A stretch of DNA of 64,000 bases from Haloarcula halobia (GTDB taxonomy: Archaea; Halobacteriota; Halobacteria; Halobacteriales; Haloarculaceae): positions 2,805,631 to 2,869,630 of the forward strand of contig NZ_CP119787.1 of NCBI RefSeq assembly GCF_029338255.1, read 5' to 3'. Each line of letters starts with the position of its first letter. Position 1 is the first letter of the stretch. This document shows positions 2,792-61,632 of the stretch, piece after piece. Made by a program: the position numbers and the translations under genes. The notes beneath the pieces were generated by a model. It made no database searches and was not told where the DNA came from. It saw nothing but the letters and a program-made list of their open reading frames with translations.

Positions 2792-3154
2792 ATGACAGAG
2801 CAACCACACAAACAGCGAACGAGTCAACGACGCGCCTCGCTGCACGAGAAGCACAAGCAGGTGCGGGCGACGCTCTCGGACGAACTCCGCGAGGAGTACG
2901 GCCAGCGCAACGTCCGCGTCAACGCCGGTGACACGGTGGAAGTGCTTCGCGGCGACGACGCCGGCGAAGAGGGCGAAGTCCTCGAGGTCGACCTCAAAGA
3001 CTCCGTCATCCACGTCGAGGGCGTGACCCTCGAGAAGACCGACGGCGAAGAGGTCCCCCGGCCGCTCGACACCTCCAACGTGCGAGTCACCGAACTCGAC
3101 ACGGAGGACTCGAAGCGAGTCGTGCGTCTCGAATCGGAGGATGATTCCGCATGA
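2792..3154 (+). CDS. rpl24: 50S ribosomal protein uL24
   Basis: This 120-residue protein begins with the archaeal pattern of Arg, Gln and Lys residues ending in [18 protein letters not shown], and has a KOW motif ([20 protein letters not shown]) near residues 45-64. uL24 is an early assembly protein of the large subunit. Its stop overlaps the eS4 ATG by four bases. Confidence 0.97.
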
Positions 3155-3909
3155 GTAACCACCAGAAACGCCTCTCGGTGCCGAACAGCTGGCCCGTAGA
3201 GCGCAAGACAGCCACGTTCACGGTCAAGGCCGGTGCCGGCCCGCACGGTGAGTCGGGGGTCCCCCTGCTCATCGTCCTGCGGGACGTGCTCGGCTACGCC
3301 GACAACCGCAAGGAAGCGCGCTACGCGCTCAACGAGGACAACGTCCGCATCAACGGGACGGCCGTCTCCGACGAGGAGCGGCCCGTCGGGATGTTCGACA
3401 TCCTGGCTTTCACCGAGCGCGAGGAGTACTACCGGGTCTTCCCCGGCGAGGGCGGGCGGCTGGCGCTGACGGCCATCGAGGCCGACGCCGCCGAGTCCAA
3501 GCTCGGCAAGATCGTCACCAAGACGCAGGTCGCCGGCGGCGACATCCAGCTTGGCCTCCACGACGGCGAGACGCTCGTCGTCGAGGACGCCGACACCTAC
3601 GACGCCGGCGACTCCATCGTCGTCGACAACGAGGACGGCTCCATCGTCGCCCACTTCGAGTACGAGGAGGGCGCGCTCGTCACAGCCGTCGACGGCACCC
3701 ACGCCGGCGAGATCGGCACCGTCGACGAGATCCAGGTCACGCCAGGCTCCGCACAGAACAACGTCCTGGTCGCCCAGGAGGTCGGCGAGGGCTTCGAGAC
3801 CATCGAGGAGTACGTCGTCGTCATCGACGAGAACTTCACGGGCGATTCGGACGACGAATCGGAACCCGTGAGCGGCGAAGCCGCGAGCGAGGGTGATGAC
3901 GATGAGTAG
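3151..3909 (+). CDS. rps4e: 30S ribosomal protein eS4
   Basis: The 252-residue protein follows the archaeal/eukaryotic eS4 plan: N-terminal [19 protein letters not shown], an S4-type RNA-binding fold ([20 protein letters not shown]), and a C-terminal KOW segment around [12 protein letters not shown]. Bacteria lack it, so it supports an archaeal source. The last 25 residues are an acidic tail. It overlaps uL24 by four bases and uL5 by eight. Confidence 0.97.
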
Positions 3910-37230: not shown

Positions 37231-37314
37231 TAATACTGCCGGCTGTAACATTTAGAAAATACTCGGCATCCCGGGGTGCCGAGAATCTTTACGAACTTAC
37301 AGCCGGCAGTATAA
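37231..37314. repeat. Nested palindromic element
   Basis: An 84-base AT-rich island holds two nested inverted repeats. The outer arms are 37231-37248 and 37297-37314 (TTACAGCCGGCAGTATAA on the right), matching at 17 of 18 bases. The inner palindrome is 37262-37283, CTCGGCATCCC against GGGGTGCCGAG. The element sits 20 bases before a GTG start. It could be a miniature mobile element, a folded RNA or an operator; no second copy is seen in the window. Confidence 0.8.
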
Positions 37315-37333: not shown

Positions 37334-38152
37334 GTGACAGTGATAGTCGTCGCCACGGAGGACTTCGAGGTGTACCACGGCGTGGTCAACGAGCTGCGCG
37401 ACCGCGGCGTCACCTTCACCACCATCGAACCCGGCGACGAGTGGCCCGACCGCGTCGACGTTGCCGTCGTCGCGACTGACGAGGCCGTCGACGTGCCCGA
37501 CGGCGTCCCGGTCGTCGAGGCCGACCCGGACGACCCCCGGAGTGCAGTCGAGGCAGTCGTCACCAGCCTCCGGGGGACAGCGGGGCGGACCGTCGTCGGT
37601 ATCGACCCCGGCGAGCGACCGGGTGTCGCCGTCCTGCAGGGCGACGTGGTGGTCGCCGCGTTCCAGGTGCCCGCGGCACAGGCCGGTGACCTCGTCCGGG
37701 AGGAAATCGAGGACGTGCCGGACCCGCTGGTCCGAATCGGGGACGGCGCACGCCTGGCGGGCGCACGCATCATTGACGACATCGAGGACGTTCCCGTCGA
37801 ACTGGTCGACGAGTCCGGGACGACGCCGTATCTCGGGAGCGGCGCCCGCGGCATGGGCGACGTGCTGGCGGCGGTCAACATCGCCCGCCTGGAGGGTGAG
37901 AGGGTCTCGAATCGGACCATCGAACCGACCGCCGGCGAACTCCAGCGCATCCAGGACCGCTCGCGCGAGGAGAGCGAGACGAACCGCGCCATCGACGAAC
38001 TACTGGCCCGGCGCGTGGCCGTCGGCGACCTCACCATCGCGGAGGCGCTGGCCGAGCACCGCGGTGAGAGCGACGGCGGGAGCGAAGAAACGGACGACAC
38101 GGGCGACGCGGACCCGGCCACAAGCGGCGGCGTGGACGACCGGGACAGTTAG
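37334..38152 (+). CDS. Conserved haloarchaeal protein with RNase H-like fold
   Basis: From GTG 37334 the protein has 272 residues. The middle starts with TVVGIDPGERPGVAVLQGD, where Asp91-Pro-Gly and a later Gly resemble the first strand of RuvC/RNase H-fold nucleases; RIGDGARLAGARII and GARGMGDVLAAVNIAR follow and contain further acidic residues. The first 80 residues form another alpha/beta domain. The C-terminus is an acidic tail. Activity is not proven; it may be a Holliday-junction-resolvase-like or purely structural protein. It overlaps the end of larC on the other strand. Confidence 0.65.
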   Translation: MTVIVVATEDFEVYHGVVNELRDRGVTFTTIEPGDEWPDRVDVAVVATDEAVDVPDGVPVVEADPDDPRSAVEAVVTSLRGTAGRTVVGIDPGERPGVAVLQGDVVVAAFQVPAAQAGDLVREEIEDVPDPLVRIGDGARLAGARIIDDIEDVPVELVDESGTTPYLGSGARGMGDVLAAVNIARLEGERVSNRTIEPTAGELQRIQDRSREESETNRAIDELLARRVAVGDLTIAEALAEHRGESDGGSEETDDTGDADPATSGGVDDRDS

Positions 38153-39543
38153 GACTGGACGGTCCGTTCCGCCCGGCGCATGACCTCCCGAATCGTCAGT
38201 CCGGTGGCCTCGGCGACGGCCACCGCGTCGTCGTACTCGGCGCTGACATCGTAGACCGTCCCCGTCCCGTCGGTGGCCACCTTCACCGTCACCTCGTAGG
38301 ACTCGCCGTCGACGGACAGCGCGACCGTCTCGAACTCGCGGTCGGCGATCCAGCGGTGGCCCGCGCCGTGCTCCCTGACGCCCAGGGTCCCCGTCTCCAC
38401 GGCCAGCCGGCGGGCGACGGTCTGGGCCCGTTCGGGCTTGCAGACCACCTTCACGAGGTGGCCCGGCCGGGACTTCTTCATCGTCGTCGGCACGACGGTG
38501 ACGTCGCGTGCGCCGACGGCATCGAGCGAGCGCTGCAGGTCGCCCAGCACCTCCGGGGAGACGTCGTCGACGTTCGTCTCGAGGACCGTGATGTCGTCGC
38601 GGCGGAGGCGGCCGCTCGTCTCGCCGACCATCGTCCGGAGGACGTTGGGCCGGTCAGACACGTCCCGGGCGCCGGCGCCGTACCCCGAGTCGGCGACGTC
38701 CATCGGCGGGAGGCTCTCGACGCCCTCGGCGACGTGGGCCAGGATTGCCGCGCCCGTCGGCGTCAGGAGTTCGACCGCGACCGGCCCGCCGGCCAGCGAC
38801 CAGTCGGCCCGCTCGGCGATTTCGACCACCGCTGGCGTCGGTACCGGGTAGGTCCCGTGGCTCATCTCGACGGTACCCTCGCCGGCCGACACCGGCGTGG
38901 TGACGACGCGTTCGACGTCGAGGTCCGCGAGCAGGAGCGCGGCCCCGACGACGTCGGCGATGGCGTCGTCGGCCCCGACCTCGTGGAAGTGGGTCGCGGC
39001 CAGGTCGGTCCCGTGGACGGCTGCCTCGGCGGCCCCCAGAAGCTCGAAGATCGATAGCGCGTCGGCCTCGACGGTCTCGGGAAGGCCCAACCCCTCGACG
39101 ATGTCCACGACTTCGGTGTAGGTCCGGGCCGGGCCGTGACCTTCGGCGTGCGTGTGGTCGTGATCGGAACCCCCGCGGGTGTGGGCCGAGTCACTGTGGT
39201 CGTGCGTGTGATCGTGGCCAGACTCCTCGTGGTCGTGCGCGTGATCGTGGCCAGACTCCTCGTGGTCGTGCGCGTGATCGTGGCCAGACTCCTCGTGGTC
39301 GTGCGCGTGATCCTGCCCGGACCCGCCGAGCCCGTCGTCGTGGTCCGCTCCGTCCCCAGTCAGCAGGACCTCGATGCGCGTCGCAGCGACGCCGCTCCGA
39401 TCGACCGTCGAGACGTCGTAGGTCACGTCGAGGGCCTCCTCGGCGGGGTCGAGTGCGGCGCGGTCGGCGCCGGCCGCCAGGAGCGCACCGAGGACCATGT
39501 CGCCGGCGGCCCCCATCCGGCCGTCGAAGGCGAGTGTTCGCAT
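38149..39543 (-). CDS. larC: Nickel-pincer cofactor biosynthesis protein LarC with His-rich loop
   Basis: The 464-residue protein begins LAFDGRMGAAGDMVLGALLA and contains ATHFHEVGADDAIADVVGAA, HGTYPVPTPAVVEI, LLTPTGAAILAHV and LETNVDDVSPEVLG, all LarC landmarks. LarC inserts nickel into the pincer cofactor of lactate racemase-type enzymes using CTP. Between residues about 75 and 140 lies a His/Asp-rich segment built of 11-residue repeats (HDHEESGHDHA), probably for nickel storage. LarB, LarE and LarA are not in the window. It converges on and overlaps by four bases the RNase H-like gene. Confidence 0.9.
   Translation of the reverse strand: MRTLAFDGRMGAAGDMVLGALLAAGADRAALDPAEEALDVTYDVSTVDRSGVAATRIEVLLTGDGADHDDGLGGSGQDHAHDHEESGHDHAHDHEESGHDHAHDHEESGHDHTHDHSDSAHTRGGSDHDHTHAEGHGPARTYTEVVDIVEGLGLPETVEADALSIFELLGAAEAAVHGTDLAATHFHEVGADDAIADVVGAALLLADLDVERVVTTPVSAGEGTVEMSHGTYPVPTPAVVEIAERADWSLAGGPVAVELLTPTGAAILAHVAEGVESLPPMDVADSGYGAGARDVSDRPNVLRTMVGETSGRLRRDDITVLETNVDDVSPEVLGDLQRSLDAVGARDVTVVPTTMKKSRPGHLVKVVCKPERAQTVARRLAVETGTLGVREHGAGHRWIADREFETVALSVDGESYEVTVKVATDGTGTVYDVSAEYDDAVAVAEATGLTIREVMRRAERTVQS
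39210..39308 (-). repeat. 33-bp tandem repeat inside larC
   Basis: Three perfect copies of a 33-base unit encode three copies of the 11-residue His-rich repeat in frame. Degenerate continuation is seen on both sides. The identity of the copies at the DNA level suggests recent expansion. Confidence 0.85.
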
Positions 39544-59956: not shown

Positions 59957-60005
59957 GAGCCTGTCATAGAACGCGTCACGTACGAAGCAGCAGGGTGCGG
60001 AAAGT

Positions 60006-61002
60006 GTGTCCAGCAGAACCGCAACCCTGCAAGATGTGGATTCAGTAGACGACTTCTTGAATGTCGCGGCTACCGACACAGTACCGCTATTCGAGCACCT
60101 TGAGTTCGAGTTTCTGCTGGAGTACGACGTGTTCGCCCCTTCGAAGCGGGGGCGAACACGTGTACACAAGCCACCAGACCTCTTTCGCGGCTTTCTCCAC
60201 TGCTACTACGAGGATGTTTACGGTACACGTCCGGTTACACGAGAACTTCAGCACGGCCTCGTCTGGTACTACTGCGGACTCGACAAACCGCCATCCAGAG
60301 ACACGATTGATCGCTTTCTCACCGATCTCGAACACGTTGTCGACGACATCTTCGACAGGCTCGTCGAGCAGGCCGCCGCCCGCGGCCTGCTCGACTCCAC
60401 GTACTCTATCGATTCGACGCACATCGAGGCGATCCAACACAACGACGCCGCCTCGTGGAACTACGACCCAACAGCCGAAGAGTCTACTACGGCTTCGGCT
60501 GTACGATTGTCTCGACTGGCGCAAAGATCCCGATAGCAGCGGAGTTCACGCAAGCCAAGAAGCGGATCAGGAGACGGCGATTCGCGTCACGCGTGACGCG
60601 CTCGCCGTCGACACACCGATCTGGATGCTTGGAGACAGCGCCTACGATATCCTCGATTGGCACGACTACCTGCTGGCTGCAGGGGTCGTGCCAATCGCCC
60701 CATACAACCCGCGAAATACTGACGACCCGAAAGACATCGAGTACAGGGTCGAAGACCAAATCAAGGAATACAACGGGGACGTGCAGCTGAAACAATCCAT
60801 CTTGGACGAGACGTACAACTGCCGCACAGGAGTCGAACGAACCAACGACGCAGTCAAGCACTGCGGCCTCGGGCACGTCCGCGCCCGAGGCCGCGTCCAC
60901 GCACGAACAGAAGTGTTCGTTGCGCTCTGCCTCCGGCTCGTTGTTGTCATCACCAACTACGAGCGCGGAGACAATCCGGGAAGCACGATCATCACGTTAT
61001 GA
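60006..61002 (+). pseudogene. Frameshifted DDE transposase of the 59957 element
   Basis: The protein starts at GTG 60006 (TLQDVDSVDDFLNVAATDTV) and runs through STYSIDSTHIEAIQHNDAAS in the first frame. Near 60485 it shifts to another frame (YYGFGCTIVSTGAKIPIAAE) and near 60560 to a third (QEADQETAIRVTRDALAVDT, MLGDSAYDILDW, GVERTNDAVKHCGLGHVRAR) up to the stop at 61002. Catalytic regions are present but spread over three frames, so an active enzyme would need two frameshifts. It is of the IS4/IS5 type DDE clan; exact family is not certain. Confidence 0.8.
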
Positions 61003-61027
61003 GACTGTTTCTATGACACCCTCTCGG
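61001..61027. repeat. Internal copy of the terminal inverted repeat
   Basis: This stretch directly behind the transposase stop matches the functional right end (61610-61636) at 20 of 27 positions with the shared core TTCTATGACA, and its complement matches the left end at 16 of 21. It is probably the original right end of the element. Confidence 0.65.
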
Positions 61028-61242
61028 CAATAGCTGTCATACTCACCTCGGAATCATTCGATAACACCCGCAGTGTGGTCTATTTGTTACGGAGCTCTCG
61101 TTTTCGATCTTCGATCGCAGCCCGAATGTCGGATTTGAGTTCACCTAACGATTGCCTCATTGCGCTCTCTAATTTCGTCAGGGTTTCGTCTTCAGTGTAC
61201 AATTTTTTTCGTATCCTTTGTAGGCATGGATCTTCCTCGTCT

Positions 61243-61527
61243 TCAGGTCGACGGCACGGAAGATGTCGATTCAGGCTCCGAGTGGAGCCCGACCTGGCCG
61301 GTCGAATGGGCCGTCACACGATAGTCACAGTACGAGAACTCGACTGACCGCTCGGAATGGGTGTCGGTGACGTTCGAATGCCGAAGCAACGCATTGAGGG
61401 CGTCTGGATCGATGGTTTCGTACAGAGGGGGTAACTCACAGATATCTACGCCAGTTTCTTCGGCAACTTTTTTACAAACCTCGTATGCCGCATCCCATCT
61501 TTCGGTTGTATCTGTGCTGACTATCAT
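61243..61527 (-). CDS. HalOD1-domain protein inside the insertion element
   Basis: From ATG 61527 the protein has 94 residues covering a HalOD1 output domain: STDTTERWDAAYEVCKKVAE, then ELPPLYETIDPDALNALLRH (the diagnostic L-P-P-L-x2-x-I-D-P-D-A-L) and VEFSYCDYRVTAHSTGQVGL. Longer in-frame reading crosses the terminal repeat, so the inner ATG is chosen. HalOD1 domains are haloarchaeal signalling outputs of unknown action. It lies entirely within the outer inverted repeats, so it moves with the element. Confidence 0.8.
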   Translation of the reverse strand: MIVSTDTTERWDAAYEVCKKVAEETGVDICELPPLYETIDPDALNALLRHSNVTDTHSERSVEFSYCDYRVTAHSTGQVGLHSEPESTSSVPST

Positions 61528-61632
61528 CACAACAAATCTACCACCCCGATTGATAAACACACTTCCCGTAATCTCAATCCCTGAGAACACCTCTGTAACT
61601 GGTTCGTACGTGACGCGTTCTATGACAGGCTC

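Follow-up and report, generated by a model that had tools for sequence, protein, structure and literature searches.

A dispersed MITE-like palindrome in the promoter region of a conserved haloarchaeal gene

What is the 84-bp nested palindrome that lies just upstream of a conserved gene in Haloarcula halobia, and does it serve that gene? The palindrome occupies positions 37231-37314 of the window, by which we mean the whole 64,000-nucleotide stretch of DNA that was analysed. A preliminary description of this DNA offered three possibilities, namely a dispersed miniature element, a regulatory structure, or a site for the RNase H-like protein encoded next to it.

The structure itself is present as described. 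Its outer arms, TAATACTGCCGGCTGTAA (37231-37248) and TTACAGCCGGCAGTATAA (37297-37314), pair at 17 of their 18 positions and enclose an inner hairpin at 37262-37283. The predicted minimum free energy of -44.2 kcal/mol (z -8.6) is far beyond chance, with none of 200 shuffled sequences folding as well. The palindrome had also been called AT-rich, which holds relative to its GC-rich surroundings (64% GC across the window, 70% close to the palindrome), but not in absolute terms, its own GC content being 50%. No Rfam family reaches its gathering score anywhere within the window.

Comparison of copies, together with their target duplications, places the element proper at 37234-37311, a length of 78 bp. 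The three outermost bases on each side form a direct duplication of the target (TAA/TAA), and the single mismatch between the arms thus arises because these bases are a direct repeat, the mark of a target-site duplication. The features of the locus are as follows, each with the evidence on which it rests.

37231-37233, no strand: left target-site duplication TAA (single TAAG in the empty site of the relative SYNS111)
37234-37311, no strand: window copy of the MITE-like element, a near-complete, non-coding palindrome (13 places in its own genome, copy boundaries, SYNS111 empty site)
37234-37248, plus strand: left terminal inverted repeat TACTGCCGGCTGTAA (arm match, aligned copies)
37262-37283, no strand: inner hairpin CTCGGCATCCCGGGGTGCCGAG (several pairs covary across copies; folding)
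37297-37311, minus strand: right terminal inverted repeat (arm match, aligned copies)
37310-37314, plus strand: TATAA at the junction of element and target, an inferred replacement TATA box (positions -30 to -26 relative to the conserved GTG; -29 to -25 is AT-rich in 32 orthologues)
37312-37314, no strand: right target-site duplication TAA, followed by G (copy comparison, SYNS111 empty site)
37340-38152, plus strand: downstream gene for a conserved haloarchaeal protein with a predicted RuvC-like RNase H fold (a neighbour, outside the element)

Copies, target duplications and empty sites

A search of the genome and its relatives, which the preliminary description had proposed as a check, returned many copies, and the palindrome is therefore not unique. 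It occurs at 13 places in its own genome (12 at 86-100% identity to the query and one at 74%), and the window copy used as query finds matches in 20 of 32 Haloarcula genomes. When a consensus is used instead, matches appear in 49 of 116 genomes of the family, representing 15 of 22 genera. Plasmids of Haloarcula, Halomicrobium, Natribaculum and Haloplanus carry copies as well. Among 86 copies of 78 bp, mean identity is 93% within genomes and 80% between them, a difference that fits separate, lineage-specific bursts of amplification as judged from these alignments.

For closer analysis we assembled 118 copies from Haloarcula in the broad sense. They come from 114 loci (13 in the own genome, one from a further search, and 100 regions chosen among the matches listed), with just nine of the listed copies of one genome, G028, being taken. 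The 3-bp flanks are identical in 96 of these 118 copies and have the form TNA on both sides in 99, while C before and G after the TNA (CTNAG) is seen in 65. Furthermore, the middle base of the flank is the same on both sides in 114 copies and complementary in one. Complementary bases would be expected there if the flanks were simply part of the palindrome. Exact duplication persists in 94 of 113 copies after five orthologous repeats are dropped, and outside the genus it is found in 52 of 62 copies with distinct flanks.

An empty-site comparison bears on mobility. We joined the flanks of ten other own-genome copies and queried them against the relative SYNS111, where eight sites match in one piece across the junction (the query for one of these, L049, being 40 bases short). 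One further site, L047, matches in two separate pieces, and another, L041, finds no match. At seven of the eight empty sites SYNS111 has a single TNA where the own genome has the element; at the remaining one, L048, there is no clear TNA at the junction and the own-genome flanks differ. The window site is likewise empty in SYNS111, with one TAAG, which brings the own-genome sites without an element there to nine. SYNS111 itself has few element matches (two among the matches listed). Joined-flank searches for two other genomes gave mostly one-sided matches, with two of theirs spanning the junction at 69-70% identity, and two Halomicrobium plasmids compared for an empty site gave no clean alignment. 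Judging by these sequence comparisons, the element has moved, since its dispersed copies differ between genomes and a close relative retains empty sites. The suggestion of a dispersed miniature element, made from the window copy alone, is in this way strongly supported.

A phage collection contained no match to the element, and viral contigs contained no exact match to its 18-base core. The 15-base arm does match 34 stretches of viral contigs; having scanned these for arm pairs, we read the matches as chance. Three loci (L172, L180 and L184) carry single element arms right after TGA or TTA, followed by non-element sequence, and may represent solo ends or decayed copies. A literature search found no description of this family among the papers listed, and for the arm sequence it brought up a single unrelated paper, which is not proof of absence in print.

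Insertions at stop codons and in a promoter

The genus copies show an unusual relationship to genes. In 63 of the 118, the element adjoins a predicted gene end exactly and the TNA is the stop codon itself; another 50 lie elsewhere between genes, one is inside a predicted gene, and four are too near a locus end. With repeats removed, 63 copies at a stop and 46 elsewhere between genes compare with 23 and 106 for background CTNAG sites, drawn from the non-genic parts of those loci (p 2e-10). These counts derive from a home-made gene caller that uses codon log-odds trained on the window. Public annotation offers a check, in that 7 of 12 distinct copies on annotated plasmids adjoin an annotated stop codon (one of the seven being a weak copy, and records without annotation having been left out). 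Outside the genus the excess is weaker (15 against 41, with a background of 6 against 51, p 0.03).

Many insertions fall exactly on stop codons because TGA, TAA or their complements fit TNA, and duplication of the TNA upon insertion would preserve the stop. Of the 63 copies at stops, 39 have the C and G around the TNA, as do 24 of the 50 others, so part of the preference for stops may come from the target and the rest from the survival of harmless insertions.

The window copy is among those that lie elsewhere between genes, and its relationship to the downstream gene depends on where that gene begins. Of 55 orthologous loci we aligned 32, chosen because their match starts at the third residue of the reading that starts at 37334, and all 32 have GTG at the place corresponding to 37340. 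Since this GTG is kept throughout, 37340 is probably the real start, with a gap of 25 bases between palindrome and gene rather than the 20 bases stated earlier.

In these 32 orthologues, positions -29 to -25 form an AT-rich box, and -10 and -9 are mostly A. In the window, the junction left by insertion reads GTATAAG, and its TATAA stands at -30 to -26. We propose that the target TAA lay in a TATA-like box of a gene whose promoter looks leaderless, and that the inserted end (...CAGTA) and the duplicated TAA together would have rebuilt TATAA at a fitting distance. The downstream gene would then probably keep its core promoter and lose its native upstream sequence. Positions at TATA distance are not significantly preferred across copies in general (9 of 91 against 6 of 98, p 0.42), and so the promoter insertion in the window may be chance.

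The protein encoded at 37340-38152 is conserved in haloarchaea. The earlier guess of an RNase H fold gains support from its predicted structure (mean pLDDT 80, pTM 0.51), in which residues about 81-193 form a putative RuvC/YqgF-like domain resembling Tex, RuvC, RuvX and YqgF (VIA-align Z about 8-11). A Foldseek search with the predicted structure gave no match at E <= 0.001, and no Pfam or NCBIfam family reaches its cut-off, with DUF460 being matched weakly by 22 of 30 members of the protein's family. One metagenome-derived Halobacteriales genome has a weak copy of the element (L068, 3776-3851) immediately after the RNase H-like orthologue. Further along the window, at about 39190-39315, a gene for a nickel-insertion protein (PF01969) contains a histidine-rich tandem repeat (HDHAHDHEESG-like).

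Family identity and competing readings

We consider it very probable that the window copy is one member of a family of non-autonomous, MITE-like transposable elements of about 78 bp in Haloarcula and related haloarchaea. The element is short (78 bp, under the 500 bp usual for MITEs), non-coding, multicopy and dispersed (13 own-genome places). It has 15-bp terminal inverted repeats and a target-site duplication that is exact in 96 of 118 copies and has a single TNA as its counterpart at seven of the eight empty sites and at that of the window. A 3-bp TNA duplication, preferably within C|TNA|G, is the signature of PHIS/IS5-type (NuwaII-like) elements, and TNA stands on both sides of 99 of the 118 copies. 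Strict membership among MITEs is unproven because the transposase families and paired ends searched yielded no autonomous parent.

Alternatively, the hairpin might be maintained by the host as a bidirectional terminator or a stabiliser of mRNA 3' ends, kept behind genes by selection, with mobility as its origin only. The 63 genus copies and seven annotated plasmid copies that adjoin gene ends agree with such a role, and so does the pairing pattern. In the 80 aligned copies examined (those of 78 bp among 106 distinct), 90.0% of cells pair, compared with 86.4% in shuffles, and helix 1 reaches 96.5%. Changes on both sides affect 16 of 31 pairs, against 11.8 in shuffles, of which 1 of 500 reaches that number. 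They fill 123 cells, against 47 in shuffles and at most 48 in slid controls, so that by this sequence measure the element as a whole forms a single hairpin with covarying pairs. Further pair types, in contrast, show no excess (38 against 37.4 in shuffles). The copies are also related to one another, a transposase requires matching arms, and template-switch correction can create paired changes in the absence of selection, so selection on an RNA is unproven. Moreover, once the copies are oriented, the abutted gene shows no clear side preference (33 to 30 for left and right), which argues against an RNA role tied to one strand. Fifty genus copies, including that in the window, are elsewhere between genes, and nine sites have no copy in SYNS111. 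We therefore judge host maintenance to be unlikely.

It is much less probable still that the palindrome belongs to the downstream RNase H-like gene, either as a regulatory element or as a site for protein binding. Since branched DNA is the substrate of RuvC, the predicted RuvC-like fold of the neighbouring protein, like the location of the element within that gene's promoter, can be counted in favour of such a site. In a profile scan, however, the element was found upstream of the gene in none of 55 orthologous loci (two of which have a copy elsewhere), and the other 12 own-genome places are not beside this gene. The proposal of a site for the adjacent protein is accordingly unsupported, and a regulatory structure is conceivable only as a side effect of the promoter insertion. 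A palindrome of the REP/REPIN type, or one derived from IS605 and moved by a Y1 transposase, is the least probable reading. Such a palindrome could also be short, dispersed and largely outside genes, but the copies consistently carry a 3-bp direct duplication, and the available text of one survey says that IS605-type elements and PATEs leave their target unduplicated (PMC3119063). PATEs, being IS605-derived with neither terminal inverted repeats nor duplication, are ruled out by the presence of both in this element.

Like the prokaryotic MITEs of Haloquadratum walsbyi and Coxiella (QMITE2), as described in the available portions of the reports, the present elements are short and non-coding, with inverted terminal repeats, target duplication and many dispersed copies (PMC10969869, PMC3119063). 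QMITE2 is reported there mainly from 3' untranslated regions (PMC10969869, PMC3119063). Unlike those MITEs, the present family has yielded no parent with matching ends, the whole element is a single covarying hairpin by the alignment described above, and the duplication is often the stop codon. The SMR-B elements of Haloquadratum walsbyi, for example HqIRS41 (80 bp), resemble it in being haloarchaeal, about 80 bp long, and bounded by inverted terminal repeats without a known transposon match. SMRs are nevertheless reported, in the text available, to insert into other mobile elements and to leave the target unduplicated (PMC3119063), whereas our element duplicates TNA, and this 3-bp duplication does not agree with SMR membership. 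In the Haloquadratum walsbyi scheme, as far as that text goes, MITEs are marked by ends akin to those of known transposons and SMRs by the absence of a duplication (PMC3119063), and on present evidence the family fits neither class cleanly.

A MITE-like element would depend on a transposase acting in trans, here probably an IS5/PIF-Harbinger-type DDE enzyme that would make 3-nt staggered cuts at C|TNA|G. An IS5-like enzyme is our best guess because this target is described for the NuwaII group of PHIS (PIF/Harbinger, IS5-related), which in the available text also has a probable 3-bp duplication (PMC4482050). NuwaII transposons are eukaryotic and have known transposases, and it is the target signature alone that they share with the haloarchaeal element.

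A miniature transposon is an ordinary kind of thing, found here in a fairly striking form. Target sites, empty sites and copies specific to lineages mark the family well. It suggests a way for small mobile DNA to spread in dense archaeal genomes while doing little damage, namely the use of a short target that coincides with stop codons. It also calls for caution in annotation, because such an element can alter apparent gene ends and promoters. A bolder proposal, which we offer as speculation and judge unlikely, is that a widespread haloarchaeal transposon family targets an expression signal (the stop codon, sometimes the TATA box) and duplicates it, so that genes would outlast the insertion and acquire a strong hairpin tail. 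This hairpin, with its covarying pairs, would be kept for a host function, for instance in defining transcript 3' ends, and a not-yet-linked transposase whose C|TNA|G specificity matches that of the eukaryotic NuwaII group would drive the process.

Search for an autonomous parent

Inspection of 80 PF01609 loci (of 176 matches) revealed no transposon that has the element's ends as its own. PF13359 and PF13586 are absent from all 32 genus genomes, PF13340 is absent from 16 genomes, and PF13612 appears in 3 of 16, always below cut-off. Two pairs of ends spaced widely enough to suggest a parent were rejected. The 1.38-kb pair at L272 proved to be two separate miniature copies. The 1.49-kb pair at L397 (genome G034) is an element copy, at 1008-2498, split by a roughly 1.4-kb insertion sequence that has other ends (CGTCTTTAGCTAAG), and the same locus has a second, intact copy at 3085-3162. 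In three genomes scanned for the end sequence with up to one mismatch, the ends were either paired at the spacing of one element or single and scattered.

The window itself also includes a transposon-like segment at about 59957-61632, with 1676 bp between inverted ends GAGCCTGTCATAGAACGCGTC, a repeated flank GCGGTA, and a match to DDE_Tnp_1 inside it.
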